Shown here: in pieces, positions 52,774 through 62,050 of the stretch
How positions within the stretch are numbered: the stretch's first letter is position 1
Layout of the letters: each line of letters starts with the position of its first letter
NCBI RefSeq assembly: GCF_000424325.1
Contig: NZ_AUJR01000026.1
Location: 1-64,000 of the forward strand
Length of the DNA stretch: 64,000 nt
Direction of reading: 5' to 3'
Source: [Clostridium] clostridioforme AGR2157
GTDB lineage: Bacteria > Bacillota > Clostridia > Lachnospirales > Lachnospiraceae
Position numbers and translations under genes: made by a program
The notes under the pieces: model-generated
What the model saw: the letters and a program-made list of their open reading frames with translations, nothing else
Told to the model about the DNA's origin: nothing
Database searches by the model: none

Positions 52774-53628
52774 ATGGCAGAGGATTTTTTGTTGAAAATA
52801 AGAGGCGGATATAACCAGTTTACAAAGGCGGAGAAAAAGGTGGCTGATTATATCCTGAGCAGCCCCAAGAAGGTTCTGTTCATGTCCATCACTGAGCTGG
52901 CCGAGGCCTGCGGGGTGGGGGATACCAGCGTGTTCCGCTTTTGCAAGACCATGAACTGTAAAGGATACCAGGAATTTAAGATGCTTCTGTCCCTGAGTCT
53001 CCACGAGGGAAAGCAGGGATTCGGACAGATGGAGAGCGACATAAGCCTGGAGGACTCATTTTCCCAGGTGGCGGAGAAGGTGCTGAGTTCCAATATAAAG
53101 GCCCTTAAGGAGACCCACTCCCTGTTAAAGGAGGATGTGTTCCGGCGGGTCATTGAGTGCTTCCATAAGGCCGGACGCATCTGTTTTTACGGAGTGGGTA
53201 CCAGCATGACGACTGCCATGAAGGCGGCTGATAAGTTCCTTAAGATTGAGCCAAAGGTCTATTGCTCTCCTGATTCCCACATGCAGGCCATGATGGCCTC
53301 CACCATGGCCAGGGGCGAGGTGGCTGTTATCTTCTCCTATTCCGGGGCCACCAAGGACACCATCCATGTGGCCCAGCTGGCCAGGCAGGCAGGCGCGGCC
53401 ATTGTCTGTGTGACCCGGTTCATCAAATCGCCTCTTACGGCCTACGCGGACCTGACGCTCTTGTGCGGGGCCAATGAAAGTCCGCTGCAGGCAGGCTCAT
53501 CCTCGGCGGAAATCAGCCAGCTCTTTCTGATTGACATGCTGTATACGGAATATTACAGGACATACTATGACAAGTGCAGCGTGAATAATGAAAAGACCTC
53601 GGCATCTGTCATGGCAAAGCTGTGCTGA
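52774..53628 (+). CDS. RpiR/MurR-family transcriptional regulator
   Basis: A 284-residue regulator: N-terminal HTH_6 domain (YNQFTKAEKKVADYILSSPK, ITELAEACGVGDTSVFRFCK) and C-terminal SIS sugar-phosphate-binding domain (GRICFYGVGTSMTTAMKAAD, VAVIFSYSGATKDTIHVAQL). RpiR proteins sense phosphorylated sugars and control their catabolism. RBS AAGGAGG is 6-8 bp upstream. It sits next to, and convergent with, the LacI fusion regulator; both may bear on the transporter beyond. Its own target is not obvious. Confidence 0.87.
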   Translation: MAEDFLLKIRGGYNQFTKAEKKVADYILSSPKKVLFMSITELAEACGVGDTSVFRFCKTMNCKGYQEFKMLLSLSLHEGKQGFGQMESDISLEDSFSQVAEKVLSSNIKALKETHSLLKEDVFRRVIECFHKAGRICFYGVGTSMTTAMKAADKFLKIEPKVYCSPDSHMQAMMASTMARGEVAVIFSYSGATKDTIHVAQLARQAGAAIVCVTRFIKSPLTAYADLTLLCGANESPLQAGSSSAEISQLFLIDMLYTEYYRTYYDKCSVNNEKTSASVMAKLC

Positions 53629-53715: not shown

Positions 53716-55977
53716 TTATATATTGGTGCGGCAAAACTGCTCTTCATAGAGCTTCTGGGCGTAGTTCAGGGCGTCCTCCGGCGTCATGACCTGGCTGTAG
53801 GCATTTTTCACTGCCATGCCTATGATGCTGAGGAAGCTGCGCTCATCAAAGGGCTGGGTGGAGAACTCAGGGGTACGGCGACCATGGGCCAGGCCGAATC
53901 CGTCCTTGGCCAGGCTCAGCCAGGGGAAGGTGTTGAGTATCTCGTAATTGTCATAGGACTTACGGCAGGGGGATACGCTGCCTAACAGCGTGGCCGCGGA
54001 GGCCACGGGTTCGCTGCACATCCATTTGATGAAGGAAAGGGCGTCCTCAGGCCGTTTGGTATATTTGGCAACTCCCAGGGAGCCGCCTCCGATAACAGGA
54101 TTGCTGCCAGGCGTCAGGGCGTATCCGATATTTCCCGCTACCCGGGAGGAGTGGCTCAGAAGATCCGAGGCATAGTTGCTGTAGAGGATGGCCATGGCCA
54201 CATTGCCCCCTGCGAAGGTGGTGGCTGTGTTGGTCCACCAGGAACAGTACTTGGGATCAGAGTATTCCTTCAGGGCGATGAGCTCCTTAAGGGAACCAAT
54301 AGCCGCGGGGGAATTCAGGGTGACCCGGCAGTCCTCGTTATAAAGATTCTCCTGGTGGCTGAACAGGCGGGCCAGGTATTCGGAACCGGCCACTCCGGTG
54401 GAGCCAAGGGTCATGGTGGCCCCATATTCCACGGGGGAGGATGGGGTGCATGCCTTGGTGAAGAATCCGGCAATCTGGTTGAACTCTTTAAAATCCTGAG
54501 GCGGCCGGAGCTCCTGACGGTATGTTTCGTGATACATCCTGCGGTAGATAGGGCTTTCAAACAGGTCCTTCCGATAGTACAGCAGCTGTACGCTGGGGGT
54601 GGACGGCAGGGCGTATACCCTGCCCCTCACTATGGAATACTGGTTGATGGTCCCGTCCAGAAAGGTGTCTAAGCAGCTGGAGATGTCAGGGTCAATCTGG
54701 TCCAGGGGCTGCAGAATCTTGTCCGCAAACCAGGACAGCCACGTCACGTCCAGACGCAGTACATCAAAGACGGAATCATGGCGCATGTGGTTGAAGGCCT
54801 CGTATATCTCCTCATAAGAATAGATGGTGATGTTCACAGGGACCCCGGTTTTCTTGGTGTAGATGCGGGACAGGTTGCGCATGGTATAGGCGCTGGGGCT
54901 GTCCAGGGTCAGCACGTTTAAGGGCTTTTTGGAGGATGGGATAAGGATGCCCGCAAACCAGTCTCTGAAGCCGGAATTCTCCAGCAGCAGACAGGGCTGT
55001 CCGCTGTCCTGGCCGGTCCGCTGTTCCGATTCGTCCATTTCTTCCGGACCATTCTTTTTCACCTTTTTTTCTTTTGATATGTCCTTGATCAGGCACTCCG
55101 CCGCAATTTTTCCCAGCTGCCGGTAGTTCAGCTCATATTTCTGGAAGTCATTTTCCGGCATGGTGAACATGGGGGATACCGTGTAAATTTCCGGACTGTC
55201 CCCGGAATAGAAGGTGTTCCATATATCCTTGACGCTCTCCGCAAAGCCGTAGTTGGAGATGAAGATGGCCTGGGGAGCAGCGCTGCCGAACATCTGCATG
55301 ATATTCTGCAGCTTGCGGTAGGGGTCTGTCTGGATGTGATTTACCCGGCAGCCGGATGAACCCACGACGCCCATGAACCCGCTGCAAAAGTCGGATTCAT
55401 TGGGCAGCTGGAGACTTCCGGTGAGAAGGCACAGGTTGGAGAAGCCGCGCTCCATAGCCCTTAAAGCCAGCTCGCTTCCCGCTCTGTGGTAGTCAAAGCC
55501 TACATAGGGAGCCGGGAAGGGAGGACGGCGTTCCGCAAATACCACATGGTCTGCCAGCATGCCCTGCTCGTCCAGGTAGGGATTCGCGTCGGTGAAGGAA
55601 CAACAGGAGACCGCTGCCATGCCCTGGGCCATGGAGGAACGGACCTCCTGGATGGCTGCGTATTCCGCTTCCCGGTTGTCATCACTGGTCAGGTACTGGG
55701 ACACGCTGTAGCCGTGATTTTCCGCATATGCTTTAAAGCTCAGATAAAAGTCTATATATTGTTTGGAACGGATGTTGGGGAGAATGACCGCAAGGGTATT
55801 GGACCTGCCCTTCCTTAGCAGCTTGGCCCGCTCATTGGGCACGTAGCCAAGGGCAGAGGCGGCATCCATGACCTGCCGTATTTTCTCGCTGCTCACATTT
55901 CCCTTCCCGTTGAGAACGTTTGATACGGTGCCCTGGGCCACTCCGGCCGCCCTTGCAATGTCTTTGATGGTAGTCAT
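53716..55977 (-). CDS. LacI-family regulator fused to an ABC solute-binding domain
   Basis: A 753-residue protein, about twice the usual LacI length. Residues 1-60: HTH and hinge (TTIKDIARAAGVAQGTVSNV, NVSSEKIRQVMDAASALGYV). Residues about 60-305: LacI sensor domain (NTLAVILPNI, HVVFAERRPPF, YVGFDYHRAGSELALRAME). A charged linker (about 305-350) follows. Residues about 355-753: a family-1 solute-binding domain (LNVLTLDSPSAYTMRNLSRI, DVLRLDVTWLSWFADKILQP, VEYGATMTLGSTG, GGGSLGVAKYTKRPEDALSF). No signal peptide or membrane helix, so the binding domain is cytoplasmic. Start 55977 has GGAG 9 bp upstream. Divergent from a solute-binding protein/permease operon, its likely target. Confidence 0.85.
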   Translation of the reverse strand: MTTIKDIARAAGVAQGTVSNVLNGKGNVSSEKIRQVMDAASALGYVPNERAKLLRKGRSNTLAVILPNIRSKQYIDFYLSFKAYAENHGYSVSQYLTSDDNREAEYAAIQEVRSSMAQGMAAVSCCSFTDANPYLDEQGMLADHVVFAERRPPFPAPYVGFDYHRAGSELALRAMERGFSNLCLLTGSLQLPNESDFCSGFMGVVGSSGCRVNHIQTDPYRKLQNIMQMFGSAAPQAIFISNYGFAESVKDIWNTFYSGDSPEIYTVSPMFTMPENDFQKYELNYRQLGKIAAECLIKDISKEKKVKKNGPEEMDESEQRTGQDSGQPCLLLENSGFRDWFAGILIPSSKKPLNVLTLDSPSAYTMRNLSRIYTKKTGVPVNITIYSYEEIYEAFNHMRHDSVFDVLRLDVTWLSWFADKILQPLDQIDPDISSCLDTFLDGTINQYSIVRGRVYALPSTPSVQLLYYRKDLFESPIYRRMYHETYRQELRPPQDFKEFNQIAGFFTKACTPSSPVEYGATMTLGSTGVAGSEYLARLFSHQENLYNEDCRVTLNSPAAIGSLKELIALKEYSDPKYCSWWTNTATTFAGGNVAMAILYSNYASDLLSHSSRVAGNIGYALTPGSNPVIGGGSLGVAKYTKRPEDALSFIKWMCSEPVASAATLLGSVSPCRKSYDNYEILNTFPWLSLAKDGFGLAHGRRTPEFSTQPFDERSFLSIIGMAVKNAYSQVMTPEDALNYAQKLYEEQFCRTNI

Positions 55978-55990
55978 CTGCCGGCTCTCC

Positions 55991-56032
55991 TTTCAAATAA
56001 TGCATTTCAAGTAATGTATTTCAAGTGATATA
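55991..56032. repeat. Three 14-bp tandem repeats in the lacI-fusion 5' region
   Basis: TTTCAAATAATGCA, TTTCAAGTAATGTA and TTTCAAGTGATATA follow each other without gaps, starting 13 bp upstream of the start codon (minus strand). A related string TTTCAAATACGATGC lies inside the promoter spacer of the divergent operon. Possible autoregulatory operator array; otherwise slippage. Confidence 0.65.
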
Positions 56033-56226
56033 TTTGGTTCAATTTTACCATATGGCGAGCAATTTGTAAAACTGTTGCAGATACGATTCAATATAAGCCG
56101 GAATATGCAGATGTGACAGCTTGATAAAAATACGTTAAAATGTAAAAAACATGCAAAAAGTAGAAAAAATTCATGTAAAAACCGGTTTAAATATAGGATA
56201 AATGTGCAAAATGCCTTAAAATAATA

Positions 56227-56255
56227 TTGACACGTTTCAAATACGATGCTATGAT
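56227..56255 (+). promoter_or_regulatory. Promoter of the solute-binding protein operon
   Basis: TTGACA (56227-56232), 17 bp, TATGAT (56250-56255) with TGn extension. The spacer is CGTTTCAAATACGATGC, which shares TTTCAAATA..ATGC with the repeats before the LacI-fusion gene. The region 56033-56226 otherwise shows only AT-rich DNA. Confidence 0.7.
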
Positions 56256-56308
56256 GAAATTACAGAACATATGACAAATTCACAATAGTTTAAGAGGAGG
56301 TATGTATT

Positions 56309-57706
56309 GTGAAAAAAACAAAGAAGATTGCGGCAGCTGTCCTGGCCATGACTATGGCAGCAGGCCTTGCCGTCACTGGATGTTCCGGACAGAGAGGAAA
56401 TACGGGCACGGATGCGGCGTCGGCAGAGCGGTCTGAGGAAACCGCCGGAAGTGCCGGTGACACCAAGGATGATGCAGCCAAGGCTGATGACGGCGCACTT
56501 CACCTTACATTTTATTACCCGGTCAATGTAGGCGGTTCCGCAGCACAGCTGATTGAGAAAATCTGTGCGGACTTTAATGCGGAGAACCCTGATATTTTCG
56601 TGGAGCCTGTCTATACAGGCAATTATGACGATACCGTGACAAAGATTCAGACAGCCATGCAGGGAGGAACGCCTCCGGATGTGTTTGTAAGCCTTGCAAC
56701 CCAGCGTTTTACCATGGCCTCCACAGGCATGGCCATGCCTCTTGACGAACTGATTGAGGCTGACGGAGATGAGGGAAAGGCTTATATCGATGATTTCCTT
56801 CCGGGCTTCATGGAAGATTCCTATGTGGACGGTAAAATTTACTCCATTCCATTCCAGAGAAGCACCATGGTACTGTATTACAACAAGGATGCCTTCAAGG
56901 AAGTGGGCCTGGATCCGGAAGCCCCTCCTGCCACCTGGGAAGAACTGGCTGAATACGGCCAGAAGCTGACAGACGACGGCCGCTATGGCGTGGGAATCGC
57001 GCTGAACTCCGGTTCCGCACAGTGGGCATTTACAGGCTTCTGCTTACAGAACAGCACCGACGGACAGAACCTGATGAGCGAAGACGGCAGGAGCGTATAT
57101 TTCAATACACCGGAGAATGTGGAGGCGCTTCAGTTCTGGCTGGATCTTCAGAACAAGTATAAATGCATGGCAGAGGGCATCGTACAGTGGACTGACCTGC
57201 CCACCCAGTTCCTTGCAGGCGAAGTGGCTATGATTTACCACACCACCGGCAATATGGCTAATATCCATGACAATGCGGATTTTGATTTCGGAACAGCCTT
57301 CCTTCCGGCTCACAAGAGAATCGGCGCGCCTACAGGAGGCGGCAACTTCTATATCTCCAGCAACATTTCCGAGGACAGGGTGCAGGCTGCATGGAAGTTC
57401 ATCAAGTTTGCGACCTCCACGGACAGGGCGGCGCAGTGGAGCCTGGATACAGGTTATGTGGCCACAAGACAGTCATGCTTTGGCACGGACCTGATTAAGG
57501 ATTATTACGCAGAGGTTCCTCAGGCGTCCGTTGCTTATGAGCAGCTTCCATACGCAAAGCCTGAGCTTACTACATACAATGCGGCAGAAATCTGGAGAGT
57601 GTTAAACGACAATATTCAGGCAGCCGTGGTTGGCGATATGTCTGCCCAGGAGGCGCTGGACGCAGCCCAGGAGCAGGCAGAGGAAGTTCTGTCAGAGTAC
57701 CAATAG
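56309..57706 (+). CDS. ABC transporter solute-binding lipoprotein (UgpB-like)
   Basis: A 465-residue family-1 binding protein. Lipoprotein signal MKKTKKIAAAVLAMTMAAGL then AVTGCSG (Cys25), followed by an Ala/Glu/Asp linker to about residue 62. The binding domain reads LTFYYPVNVGGSAAQLIEKI, VEPVYTGNYDDTVTKIQTAM and AGEVAMIYHTTGNMANI, closest in my reading to UgpB, the glycerol-3-phosphate/glycerophosphodiester receptor, rather than maltose types. The start is GTG behind GAGGAGG. First gene of the operon; a strong hairpin follows that may raise its level over the permeases. Confidence 0.8.
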   Translation: MKKTKKIAAAVLAMTMAAGLAVTGCSGQRGNTGTDAASAERSEETAGSAGDTKDDAAKADDGALHLTFYYPVNVGGSAAQLIEKICADFNAENPDIFVEPVYTGNYDDTVTKIQTAMQGGTPPDVFVSLATQRFTMASTGMAMPLDELIEADGDEGKAYIDDFLPGFMEDSYVDGKIYSIPFQRSTMVLYYNKDAFKEVGLDPEAPPATWEELAEYGQKLTDDGRYGVGIALNSGSAQWAFTGFCLQNSTDGQNLMSEDGRSVYFNTPENVEALQFWLDLQNKYKCMAEGIVQWTDLPTQFLAGEVAMIYHTTGNMANIHDNADFDFGTAFLPAHKRIGAPTGGGNFYISSNISEDRVQAAWKFIKFATSTDRAAQWSLDTGYVATRQSCFGTDLIKDYYAEVPQASVAYEQLPYAKPELTTYNAAEIWRVLNDNIQAAVVGDMSAQEALDAAQEQAEEVLSEYQ

Positions 57707-57891: not shown

Positions 57892-58518
57892 ATGAAAACC
57901 AAGACAAAGAAGCAGCGTGAAATCAGGAATAATGCGACAGCCTGGGCCCTGATGGCCCCGGCGCTTATATTTATGCTGGCATTTACAGTGTTCCCCATAT
58001 TCAGGAGCCTGTATCTAAGCCTTTCGAAGTACAAGCTTGGTATGGACGGCGCCGAGTTCATCGGCCTTGAGAATTATGTGAAGCTGGCCGGTTCCAAGCT
58101 GTTCTGGAAGGTAATGAAAAATACTATTGTATTCGCCCTTATGACGGTGATTCCCAGTATGGCGGTGGGCCTTGGCCTGGCGGTTCTGGTAAACCGCAAG
58201 GGCAAGCGGGTGGGATTCATCCGCACGGCCTATTTTTATCCGGTGGTCATGCCCATGATAGCCATTGCCAGCGTATGGATGTTCATTTATATGGCAAAGA
58301 ACGGGCTCTTTGACCAGCTGTTAATAGCCATTGGATTAAAGCCCATGAATGTGCTGTCCAGCAAGAATACGGTGCTTTTGGCCATGGCGGTGATGTATGT
58401 CTGGAAGGAGGCGGGATACCTGATGGTGTTCTTCCTGTCCGGTATCCAGAGCATATCCGATGAGGTGACGGAGGCTGCCAGGATTGACGGGGCAGGCAAC
58501 TGGACCGAGCCGGTATGA
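57892..58518 (+). pseudogene. ABC sugar permease 1, C-terminally truncated (UgpA-like)
   Basis: A 208-residue protein where about 290 is normal. Helices 1-4 are present (TAWALMAPALIFMLAFTVFP, FIRTAYFYPVVMPMIAIASV). The EAA loop begins properly, DEVTEAARIDGAGNW, but then ends TEPV-stop, losing the rest of the loop and the last two helices. The stop overlaps the next start (ATGA), so the normal gene junction survives while about 240 bp inside were deleted, in frame. A transporter with this subunit should not work unless another permease substitutes. Confidence 0.7.
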
Positions 58519-59330
58519 AACAAGTTAAAAGTACTGCGATTTCTGTCTTCGCCCTGGCCCTGGCGCTTATGTGGCTGGCTCCCCTGGTTTGGCTGGTGGG
58601 GACCGCCTTCAGCGAGCCTGCCTTTCATATGACCTTTCTTCCCAACAGCCGTTTTACCTTTGGGAATTTGTCTTATGTGTGGAATGCCATTCCCTTTGCC
58701 CGGTATTACCTGAATACGCTGATACTGGTGGTGGTGACCTTCTGCGTACAGTTCGTCACATCCACTCTGGCGGCCTATGCTCTGGCTGTCATGGATTTCA
58801 AGGGTCAGACGCTGGTGTTCGCCGTTATTTTCATGCAGATCATCATTCCAAATGACGTGCTCATCACACCTAACTTCATGACCCTGGCTGATATGGGACT
58901 TACCGATACCAAGGTGGGCATCATGCTGCCGTTCTTTGGAAGCGCACTGGCCATTTTCCTGCTGAGACAGCATTTTAAATCCATACCAAAGGCCTTGGCA
59001 GAGGCGGCCAGAATTGACGGTGCCAGCACATGGCAGACCATCTGGAGGGTGTACATGCCCTGCGCAAAACCTGCCTATATGTCCTTTGCGGTCATTTCCG
59101 TCAGCTACCACTGGAACAACTACCTGTGGCCTCTGATTGTGACCAATTCCCCCTCAAACCGCACACTGACCGTAGGACTTGCCATCTTCGCGAAGTCCAA
59201 AGAGGCCAACATGCAGTGGGCCAATGTCTGTGCGGCCACCTTTATCATTATCCTGCCGCTGCTCATAGCGTTCTTCTTCCTGCAGAAGCAGTTTATGAAC
59301 AGCTTTGTCAGCGCCGGAATCAAAGAGTGA
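58515..59330 (+). CDS. ABC sugar permease 2 (UgpE-like)
   Basis: A 271-residue six-helix permease, normal length. The EAA loop is complete: EAARIDGASTWQTIWRVYMP. N-terminal helix ISVFALALALMWLAPLVWLV and the LRQHFKSIPKAL segment are typical of MalG/UgpE types. The start ATG overlaps the upstream stop by 4 bp, so translation is coupled. Confidence 0.88.
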   Translation: MKQVKSTAISVFALALALMWLAPLVWLVGTAFSEPAFHMTFLPNSRFTFGNLSYVWNAIPFARYYLNTLILVVVTFCVQFVTSTLAAYALAVMDFKGQTLVFAVIFMQIIIPNDVLITPNFMTLADMGLTDTKVGIMLPFFGSALAIFLLRQHFKSIPKALAEAARIDGASTWQTIWRVYMPCAKPAYMSFAVISVSYHWNNYLWPLIVTNSPSNRTLTVGLAIFAKSKEANMQWANVCAATFIIILPLLIAFFFLQKQFMNSFVSAGIKE

Positions 59331-59368: not shown

Positions 59369-60055
59369 ATGAAACTGTATTTTTTCGGATGTGGCAGCGC
59401 CTTTAATCCTGCTATGGGAAATACATCCGCCTGGTTTGAGATGGACGGATGCCTGTTTCTGATGGACTGCGGCGAAACGGTCTATGAACTTCTGATGAAG
59501 CGCAGCAATCTCAGGGAATACAGGCAGATATATGTACTGCTGACCCATCTTCACGCGGACCATGTGGGAAGCCTTGGATCCCTGATTTCTTACAATTACT
59601 GTATCCTGGGAAGGAAAATCTGCGTTATTCATCCCAGGGCAACCGTGGTGGAGCTTCTGCGGCTTATGGGCATCAAGGATGATTTTTACAATTATTACCA
59701 GGAACTTCCGGAGGATGTGGACTGTCTTCGGGCTGAACCGGTGCCGGTAGAGCATGCGGACAATATGGACTGCTTTGGGTATCTTCTGGAGGCAGAAGGA
59801 ATGAGGATTTATTACAGCGGTGATTCCGCCCGGATGCCGGAGCGGATCGCCGGCATGCTTAAGGATGGGAAGCTGGACGCCGTTTACCACGACACATCCC
59901 TCCACAATCCGCCAACCCCCAGCCACTGCTACGTGGGGGTACTGGAAGAAACGGTTCCGGAGGAGCTGAGGCATAAAGTATACTGCATGCACCTGGACGG
60001 GGAGTGCAGGGATATGCTGGAGTCCAGGGGATTCCGGGTGGTGGAGGTTGGATAA
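59369..60055 (+). CDS. Metallo-beta-lactamase-fold hydrolase (RNase Z/PhnP-like)
   Basis: A 228-residue cytoplasmic protein: MKLYFFGCGSAFNPAMGNTS, the zinc motif LTHLHADHVGSLG, YYSGDSARMP and a final His in YCMHLDG. Order and length fit small MBL hydrolases of the RNase Z/PhnP group, which often cut phosphodiesters. It is 38 bp after the permease gene (RBS GAGGAGAAG), so it likely acts on the imported substrate. With a UgpB-like receptor, a glycerophosphodiester or cyclic phosphodiester substrate is attractive but unproven. The open frame upstream of 59369 is a shadow of the permease. Confidence 0.8.
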   Translation: MKLYFFGCGSAFNPAMGNTSAWFEMDGCLFLMDCGETVYELLMKRSNLREYRQIYVLLTHLHADHVGSLGSLISYNYCILGRKICVIHPRATVVELLRLMGIKDDFYNYYQELPEDVDCLRAEPVPVEHADNMDCFGYLLEAEGMRIYYSGDSARMPERIAGMLKDGKLDAVYHDTSLHNPPTPSHCYVGVLEETVPEELRHKVYCMHLDGECRDMLESRGFRVVEVG

Positions 60056-60322: not shown

Positions 60323-62050
60323 ATGAAGAAACCATTCATTAAAGGAGGTAAGGCCCTGACCCTGGCGGCGGCCCTGCTGTGCGGCACGGCATTTTTGGGA
60401 AGCTTTATGGCCTTTGGGGCCACGGCACAGGCAGAGAGCCAGGCAAGCGCGGCCGGTGCCCAGGCGTTTACGCCGCTGGTGGCAGGACAGATTACTTCCT
60501 GTAAGATTTCGGGAGATAAACAGAACGTTGAGATAGGATTTTCCAGCAGCGGAGATGTGACGGGAACGGACGGCAACATCTATGTCTTTGAGATGCAGCC
60601 CTACGAGGAAGAGCTGGGAAGCCGCAGCAACTTCATTGCTTCCGCCCCTGCCTTAAGCGCCTCCTCGGTAAGCGTGCCCCTGAATCTGGGCACACCCCAG
60701 GATAAGCTTTACAGCCGGTTTGTCCTGGCGGTATTTGACGGAACTCAGTTCACCAAGGTCAGCCAGCCCCACTACATAACCAACCCGGAGCTGATTGCCA
60801 GGAACCAGACCCCTTTTAATGACCCGCTGACCAAGAAAGGTCTTGTGATTGAGATTGACATGCTCAGCGACGCCTTTGACCTGGGCGTGAAGCATGTGAC
60901 CACCAACATCGCATTTTCCCAGATTATGGGAACCGGAATTGATTACCAGTATGACGGAAAGACATACCATTTTAACAAAGGCGTGGTGGACGCTTATGAC
61001 AAGACCATCAGCGCGCTGTCTAACAAGGGAATGACGGTTACGGTCATTCTGCTCAATGACTGGAATCCCAATACGCCGGATTTGGTGTATCCAGGCACAC
61101 AGAAGAATTCCAATGCGTTTTACTACATGTTCAATGCGGAAACCGAAGCCGGATTTGACCAGACCAAGGCAATCGCGTCCTTCCTGGCCCAGCATTACAG
61201 CGGCGACAATCCTAATTACGGCAAGGTGTCAAACTGGATTATCGGCAACGAGATTAACAACCAGCAGTGGAATTACATGGGTTCCATGGACCTGACTAAT
61301 TATGTGAAGGCATACCAGAAGGCATTCCGCGTCATCTACACAGCCATCAAGAGCATCAATGCCAGTGACCGGGTATATTTTTCACTGGACTATAACTGGA
61401 TGAACGAGATTGACGGCAAGCTTAAGTACGGAGGCAAGGAGATTGTGGACAGCTTTAACTCCATAGCCAACACCCAGGGACAGATTGACTGGGGCCTGGC
61501 CTATCATCCTTATCCATGCCCCATGACAGAGCCGGAGTTCTGGGATGACCCGCAGTCCACAGGACTGTTCACAAATGACTTTAATTCGCCGGTCATCAAT
61601 TTTGCCAACCTAAACGTGCTGACGGATTACTTTGTACAGGATGCCCTGAGGGCGCCGGCAGGCAATGTGCGCCACATCATACTTACGGAGCAGGGCTTCA
61701 CGTCCTACAGCCCTACCAGGGGAAACATTCCGGAGATTCAGGCAGCAGCCTACGCTTACTCCTATTACCTGGTGGACAGCAATCCGTACATTGACGCCTA
61801 CACGGTCAGCCGTCAGGTAGATGCGCCGTCCGAGGCAAAGGACGGACTGAAGTTCGGTCTGTGGGAGTGCGACATGAACCAGCCCAATCTGATTGTGGCA
61901 ACCAAGCGCAAGAAGATATGGCAGGTATTCCGGGATATCGACAAGAAGGACGCCACCCTGGAGGCCACTGAATTTGCAAAGCCAATCATCGGCATCAACA
62001 AGTGGTCGGATGTGGTTCCCAACTTCAAGTGGAAGAACCTGGAGAAATAA
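60323..62050 (+). CDS. Secreted DUF5722-like glycoside-hydrolase-fold protein
   Basis: A 575-residue exported protein. The signal peptide KALTLAAALLCGTAFLGSFM-AFGATAQA is cleaved before ESQA. An N-terminal beta domain (about 50-160) precedes a (beta/alpha)8-like domain: GMTVTVILLNDWNPN, the acid/base-type NWIIGNEINNQQW (Glu310), LAYHPYPCPM and the nucleophile-type IILTEQGF (Glu456), the spacing expected for clan GH-A retaining enzymes. This matches DUF5722 as I know it; the sugar substrate is unknown. Own promoter and RBS (GGGAGGAA), own terminator. It may feed products to a nearby transporter. Confidence 0.75.
   Translation: MKKPFIKGGKALTLAAALLCGTAFLGSFMAFGATAQAESQASAAGAQAFTPLVAGQITSCKISGDKQNVEIGFSSSGDVTGTDGNIYVFEMQPYEEELGSRSNFIASAPALSASSVSVPLNLGTPQDKLYSRFVLAVFDGTQFTKVSQPHYITNPELIARNQTPFNDPLTKKGLVIEIDMLSDAFDLGVKHVTTNIAFSQIMGTGIDYQYDGKTYHFNKGVVDAYDKTISALSNKGMTVTVILLNDWNPNTPDLVYPGTQKNSNAFYYMFNAETEAGFDQTKAIASFLAQHYSGDNPNYGKVSNWIIGNEINNQQWNYMGSMDLTNYVKAYQKAFRVIYTAIKSINASDRVYFSLDYNWMNEIDGKLKYGGKEIVDSFNSIANTQGQIDWGLAYHPYPCPMTEPEFWDDPQSTGLFTNDFNSPVINFANLNVLTDYFVQDALRAPAGNVRHIILTEQGFTSYSPTRGNIPEIQAAAYAYSYYLVDSNPYIDAYTVSRQVDAPSEAKDGLKFGLWECDMNQPNLIVATKRKKIWQVFRDIDKKDATLEATEFAKPIIGINKWSDVVPNFKWKNLEK

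Follow-up and report, generated by a model that had tools for sequence, protein, structure and literature searches.

The window, the 64,000 nucleotides at positions 1 to 64,000 of contig NZ_AUJR01000026.1 of [Clostridium] clostridioforme AGR2157, contains a gene for a regulator in which a LacI DNA-binding domain and LacI core are followed by a solute-binding protein (SBP) domain of the kind used by ATP-binding cassette (ABC) transporters. Divergent from it lies an operon encoding an SBP lipoprotein, two permeases and a metallo-β-lactamase (MBL)-fold hydrolase. The positions of these genes, and of the parts of the regulator, are collected in Table 1.

Table 1. Features of the regulator gene, the intergenic region and the divergent operon (window coordinates).
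Feature	Position	Strand	Remarks
LacI-SBP regulator (predicted repressor), whole gene, 753 aa	53716..55977	-	
LacI DNA-binding domain, residues 1-56	55810..55977	-	Pfam LacI E 3e-14; 21/56 columns near-invariant, 69 sequences
LacI core (sensor-type), residues 60-309	55051..55800	-	positions 197 and 268 without the usual effector residues
Variable linker, residues 310-345	54943..55050	-	from dN/dS and pLDDT; LacI core ends inside linker
Cytoplasmic family-1 solute-binding domain, residues 349-752, proposed sensor	53722..54933	-	
Putative operator TTGACACGTTTCAA	56227..56240	+	bases 1-6 form the -35 box (TTGACA) of the divergent operon
-10 box TATGAT, 17 bp past TTGACA	56250..56255	+	lipoprotein start then at 56309
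SBP lipoprotein of the putatively regulated ABC importer, UgpB-like	56309..57706	+	below UgpB cut-off
ABC permease 1	57892..58518	+	shortened: 208 aa, where relatives have about 300
ABC permease 2, UgpE-like	58515..59330	+	below cut-off
MBL-fold hydrolase, PhnP/RNase Z-like	59369..60055	+	below cut-offs; metal motif HLHADH; no signal peptide seen

The three-part architecture of the regulator is certain. It had been put forward in the original prediction, made from the letters of the window alone, and is confirmed by Pfam, by phmmer and by the predicted structure. The N-terminal helix-turn-helix (HTH) matches PF00356 with 52.9 bits against a cut-off of 27, and residues 2-213 align to CcpA and others in phmmer, which places this part in the LacI/GalR family. 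The strand-helix order of the LacI core is seen in the predicted structure, the VIA list being taken up by the SBP part; the Pfam match to Peripla_BP_4 lies below its cut-off. Residues 349-752 match the SBP_bac_8/1 profile of Pfam and have a two-lobed fold in the predicted structure, and thus belong to the family-1 SBPs. Both the core and the SBP domain are modeled with confidence, and between them the predicted local distance difference test (pLDDT) score falls to about 61-64 at residues 311-330 of the linker. No export signal or lipobox is present. The N-terminus is the HTH, with no export-like hydrophobic segment, so that the SBP domain lacks an export signal just as had been claimed. Pfam finds LacI and SBP_bac_8/1 only and no SBP_bac_5, so the protein is not of the SgrR type, and no named NCBIfam family scores above its cut-off. 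A frameshift, or a division into two separate genes, was considered and rejected. The original prediction had named two grounds for its own withdrawal, two genes or a region 355-753 that is not two-lobed; neither was found.

The intergenic region 55978-56308 contains the palindrome TTGACACGTTTCAA, the -35 part of which is of consensus sequence. A search of genome contigs for relatives of the regulator gave at least 590 candidate stretches. At least 410 of them encode such a protein, and the analysis covers the 80 best. For operator counts one near copy of the window (L055) was dropped and the window added to the other 79 loci, making 80 sequences. In 45 of these the form TTGACACGTTYCAA is present, with 52 sites in all. 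A -10 box (5-6 matches) accompanies 31/52 of the sites against 3.9% of random positions, a comparison not matched to the AT-rich composition of intergenic regions. Outside the window a gene starts on the same strand within 200 bp of 45 of the 51 sites; five have no such start and one locus is unannotated. The genes behind the 45 sites encode UgpB-like SBPs (17), GDPD (11), PhnS-like SBPs (6), MBL proteins (4), MgtC (3) and others (4). A looser pattern is present in 56/80 loci; its 130 matches are summed over the two strands, so that a palindrome scores twice. It was not found in 19 control contexts (302 kb), and five Markov shuffles (1.26 Mb) gave 0, 4, 0, 2 and 0 matches.

Loci from Bacillota, spirochaetes and enterics carry the exact form, that from Calditrichales a variant, and the Escherichia coli plasmid locus carries TTGACACGTTCCAA. 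Two loci, L041 and L044, have three operator copies, ahead of the SBP operon, a GDPD gene and a third unit. An operator that covers the -35 box speaks for repression, and the regulator is very likely the repressor of the divergent operon; the conserved palindrome at the promoter suggests that it would bind TTGACACGTTTCAA. The tie to the divergent transporter that was originally proposed is thus borne out by an exact operator over its promoter. In the genome of the window the copy at 56227-56240 is the single exact one. A wider regulon there was rejected, as 39 strand matches with up to two mismatches are no excess over the 54 of a reversed control pattern.

In L041 and L044 one operator copy belongs to the gene of a family of about 353 residues (L060:10205-11263; L041:10250-11302), the L060 member of which has no match in Pfam or NCBIfam. 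Variant sites such as TTGGAACGTTCAAA are present in L100 and L102, two of the loci with distant family members.

We have compared the two sensor-type modules in an alignment of 69 family sequences, that of the window included, using the 19 LacI paralogs of the same genome as the ordinary comparison set. Near-invariant columns number 21/56 in the HTH, 2/250 in the LacI core and 34/400 in the SBP domain. Against three relatives of 94-96% identity, the ratio of nonsynonymous to synonymous substitution rates (dN/dS) is 0.015-0.035 for the SBP domain, 0.019-0.041 for the HTH, 0.080-0.107 for the core and 0.40-0.99 for the linker (0.32-0.99 across four relatives), and the SBP domain is more conserved than the core in three of the four dN/dS comparisons. 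Positions 197 and 268 are presumably those of the effector-contacting Arg and Asp of LacI and PurR. In the family position 197 is Phe (55), Cys (10) or another residue and is Arg in none of the 69, against 13/19 ordinary paralogs; position 268 is mostly Ser, Ala, Thr or Gly and is Asp in none of the 67 listed (of 69), against 10/19.

Conservation and residue replacement together point to the SBP domain as the sensor, with the core as scaffold and relay, and the sensor function has likely moved from the core to the SBP domain. A single working sensor is more likely than two, given the residues replaced at 197 and 268 and a core less conserved than the SBP domain, and this weakens the earlier suggestion of two ligand-binding modules for two molecules. 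A repressor integrating two inputs, with core and SBP domain each binding an effector, perhaps a different one, would accord with the confident modeling of both domains and with purifying selection still acting on the core (dN/dS 0.08-0.17); against the loss of the usual effector residues in the family members listed and just two near-invariant core columns, we regard it as improbable. We give very little credence to the converse arrangement, in which the LacI core senses and the SBP domain serves oligomerization or protein docking. Some binding-protein domains are generally known to have lost their ligand, but here, of the two sensor-type modules, it is the SBP domain that shows the stronger conservation, both in columns and in three of four dN/dS comparisons, and the core is without its usual effector residues.

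Since the SBP domain is cytoplasmic, its ligand must enter the cell intact. The close relatives L030-L034 show the divergent arrangement of the window, with the regulator on one side and the genes for the SBP, both permeases and the MBL hydrolase on the other. The transporter type varies over the 80 loci while the SBP domain stays with the regulator. Some loci have UgpB-like ABC systems and others ABC systems resembling 2-aminoethylphosphonate importers (below curated cut-offs); a nucleoside-symporter-like major facilitator superfamily (MFS) transporter is found in enterics, in Gilliamella and in Paenibacillus, and a distant clade has further systems of the sugar type. Phosphodiester hydrolases lie nearby in 57/80 loci, as GDPD (31/80), PhnP/RNase Z-like MBL (36/80) or calcineurin-like phosphoesterase (6/80), and an MgtC-family gene in 29/80 (L049, L060, L066 and L086 among them). 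Around the ordinary LacI genes of the window's genome GDPD, MBL, MgtC and metallophosphoesterase genes are each found in 0/19. UgpB-like SBP, permease and RbsD groups say little, because they are found in control contexts too (4/19, 4/19 and 2/19).

On the tree the phosphodiesterase label falls on 48/69 rows, the window included, and changes 10 times against a shuffled mean of 18.3. In an independent Pfam search of 26 genomes, GDPD matches range from 0 to 5 per genome, and a GDPD or Lactamase_B_2 match lies within about 5.5 kb of the regulator in at least 11 of the 13 regulator-bearing genomes of the window's genus, several of which share one orthologous locus; G003 and G008 are not among the matches listed. 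Lactamase_B_2, with 6-20 per genome among the matches listed, is weaker than GDPD as the sole neighbor match. Those GDPD and MBL neighbors whose starts were examined have no visible signal peptide, so hydrolysis is probably cytoplasmic.

The fold group of the SBP domain includes proteins solved with glycerophosphocholine, a dinucleotide and sugars. In the predicted structure Arg408 lies on the strand ending at Asp410. It is present in 59/60 members outside the URO-D/RbsD-linked clade and in 0/9 within it, and we propose that it may contact phosphate; as the nine form one clade, the contrast may instead reflect ancestry. At the window itself the ligand evidence is confined to the MBL hydrolase and the UgpB-like importer. 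On balance the ligand is probably a phosphodiester.

The same design could serve a plain sugar or glycoside brought in by the importer, the hydrolases being incidental or acting on a sugar phosphate. The nearest SBP structures bind maltose, trehalose and sulfoquinovosyl compounds, and the distant clade has URO-D-like genes in 7/9 loci, and RbsD in four; the representative examined also has a binding protein of the Peripla_BP_4 type. Yet no glycoside hydrolase occurs among the annotated representatives of the neighbor groups, where there are three unrelated phosphodiesterase folds, and the nearest families of the transporters are the UgpB/UgpE and 2-aminoethylphosphonate systems, with every score under its cut-off. 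We consider the sugar rather unlikely. A phosphodiester is the more likely ligand in view of the neighboring phosphodiesterase groups, in place of the candidate sugars first suggested.

The lipoprotein scores 165.9 bits against the NCBIfam UgpB equivalog (cut-off 411) and so is not assigned to it. It shares 22-28% identity with the SBP domain of the regulator. The idea that the domain is a recent copy of this neighbor was rejected, because the identity is low and the domain stays in place while the transporter type changes. Copying from the present partner is thus unlikely. The two may nevertheless bind the same solute, as one alternative in the original prediction had it.

We favor as the probable reading a LacI-type repressor whose fused cytoplasmic SBP domain is a working phosphodiester sensor, derepressing the importer and the MBL hydrolase. 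Its basis in sequence and model is the architecture, the conserved palindrome, the overlap with the promoter, the neighboring genes and relative conservation; from these we infer DNA binding, repression, ligand class, allostery and dimer state. A ligand-free dimer would sit on TTGACACGTTTCAA, over the -35 box, and block the divergent genes. On arrival of an intact phosphodiester of the glycerophosphodiester kind in the cytoplasm, the two-lobed domain would close on it and the repressor be released, whereupon importer and hydrolase would be made. The LacI core would be kept mainly as dimerization scaffold and as a lever from sensor to DNA. There is perhaps an even chance that this represents a sensor transplant, in which a LacI lineage dropped its own effector pocket and gained an entire transporter binding protein at the distal end of the core, to give a cytoplasmic detector of imported phosphodiesters whatever the transporter. 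The lineage would have reached no fewer than four phyla, as well as E. coli plasmids, and kept the exact operator in three of these phyla.

A number of observations run counter to phosphodiester-responsive repression or weaken the case for it. In L043, L046 and L048 the variant TTGGCACGTTTCAA lies ahead of a divergent gene from a different group, c27 (about 290 aa; by eye a polysaccharide deacetylase), and two of these three loci are without a phosphodiesterase. Against a fourth, more distant relative the dN/dS is 0.193 for the SBP domain and 0.171 for the core, with dS saturated. Among the 19 ordinary paralogs Arg at 197 is missing in 6 and Asp at 268 in 9. In structural comparison the SBP domain comes closest to proteins that bind sugars or sulfo-sugars. 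The MBL hydrolase falls far under the PhnP and RNase Z cut-offs (50.0 bits against 272.25 for the PhnP equivalog), and by Pfam none of the GDPD matches of the genome lies on the contig of the window. Permease 1 lacks about 287 bp that L030 has, with the junction near 58507, and the importer of this genome may therefore be impaired. No phosphodiesterase is seen in 23/80 loci, some on short contigs; the neighbor-cluster profiles were built from the 80 family loci themselves, the names of most clusters derive from a single annotated representative (four for MBL), and near copies (five Lachnoanaerobaculum loci; L055 near the window) make the numbers overstate independence. Finally, the URO-D (7/9) and RbsD (4/9) genes of the clade of nine imply that no single ligand class covers the family.

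A cytoplasmic binding-protein domain also serves as sensor in Btr of Bacillus, which differs from the LacI-SBP regulator in being an activator of the AraC family with a siderophore ligand. With LacI/GalR proteins such as CcpA, PurR and LacI the regulator shares the DNA-binding domain, the core and, as its putative site, a central-CG palindrome over a promoter, and it differs in its extra 400-residue domain and replaced core effector residues. With SmoF, TMBP and Mycobacterium tuberculosis UgpB it shares the fold and sequence of residues 349-752; unlike them it has no signal peptide, is fused to a DNA-binding protein and has an insertion around Arg480 and Glu484, both near-invariant. SgrR/DsvR regulators, which join an N-terminal HTH to a C-terminal SBP_bac5 domain (PMC13060122, accessible part), are likewise transcription factors with a C-terminal ABC solute-binding domain. 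The domain there is SBP_bac_5 rather than SBP_bac_1/8, no LacI DNA-binding domain or core is described in that part of the source, and the SgrR regulon concerns sugar-phosphate stress, unlike the role proposed here. Engineers have made the DNA-binding domain of a repressor responsive by means of a transporter binding protein (Nat Commun 2018, PMC6079105). Such chimeras put the binding protein in place of the ligand-binding domain, whereas the natural protein keeps the core and adds the SBP.

A natural LacI repressor with both core and family-1 SBP was not found among the papers listed in searches of an open-licence library, nor by a term search of the LacI regulon paper PMC4052901; phosphodiester-PhnP-MgtC clusters and the string TTGACACGTTTCAA were not found among papers listed from that library either. 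SBP-bearing regulators and engineered fusions are thus already known, and it is a natural LacI-core-SBP protein with its operator and targets that was not found there. Widespread genes labeled as extracellular solute-binding proteins gain a testable repressor role, with named operator, target genes and ligand class. Nature would parallel the fusion of transporter binding proteins to repressor DNA-binding domains by biosensor engineers, with the LacI core kept as relay. How the closing of a distal two-lobed domain passes through a degenerate LacI core to DNA becomes a testable general question.

The LacI-SBP fusion is broad but rare. Clostridia (Lachnospiraceae and others) are represented among the 80 loci, as are Paenibacillus, Bacillus, Erysipelothrix, spirochaetes (Treponema and others), Klebsiella, Proteus, Gilliamella and one Calditrichales genome. 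Matches to the regulator at E 1e-60 are found in 16 of 61 genomes (its own and 60 relatives), 13 of them in its own genus. Among 299 Bacillota genomes drawn evenly, 15 matches to the SBP domain were obtained at E 1e-40. Two are long, that of the window and a protein of 796 aa that by eye also starts with a LacI HTH; judged by length, the remaining 13 are ordinary SBPs (433-496 aa), so that no other DNA-binding domain was found fused to this SBP type. A homolog of 30% identity is present in 48 E. coli plasmid records. Among 5426 complete E. coli genomes 46 carry this plasmid version, which lies on a plasmid at 44 of the 46 places. In the plasmid records listed it is annotated as extracellular solute-binding protein in 19/20 and as hypothetical in 1/20.

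Divergent operons of MBL, nucleoside-symporter-like MFS transporter and MgtC genes stand beside the 30%-identical repressor in two E. coli plasmids (L110 and L111), Klebsiella and Proteus; both plasmid records label the repressor as an extracellular solute-binding protein. Distant LacI-SBP members in L097, L100, L102, L104, L106 and L108 lie by sugar-type transporters and URO-D-like genes, with RbsD in four loci.

In the window the MBL gene is directly followed by a gene at 60323-62050 for a 575-residue protein matching PF18989 (DUF5722, E 9e-156). At E 1e-4 no relative of it was found in any of the 80 family loci, not even in L030, and so it is probably outside the unit. Convergent with the repressor gene, at 52774-53628, is a gene for an RpiR-type regulator (HTH_6 and SIS), of which a close copy (97-98%) is found in the near relatives L030 and L055 only.

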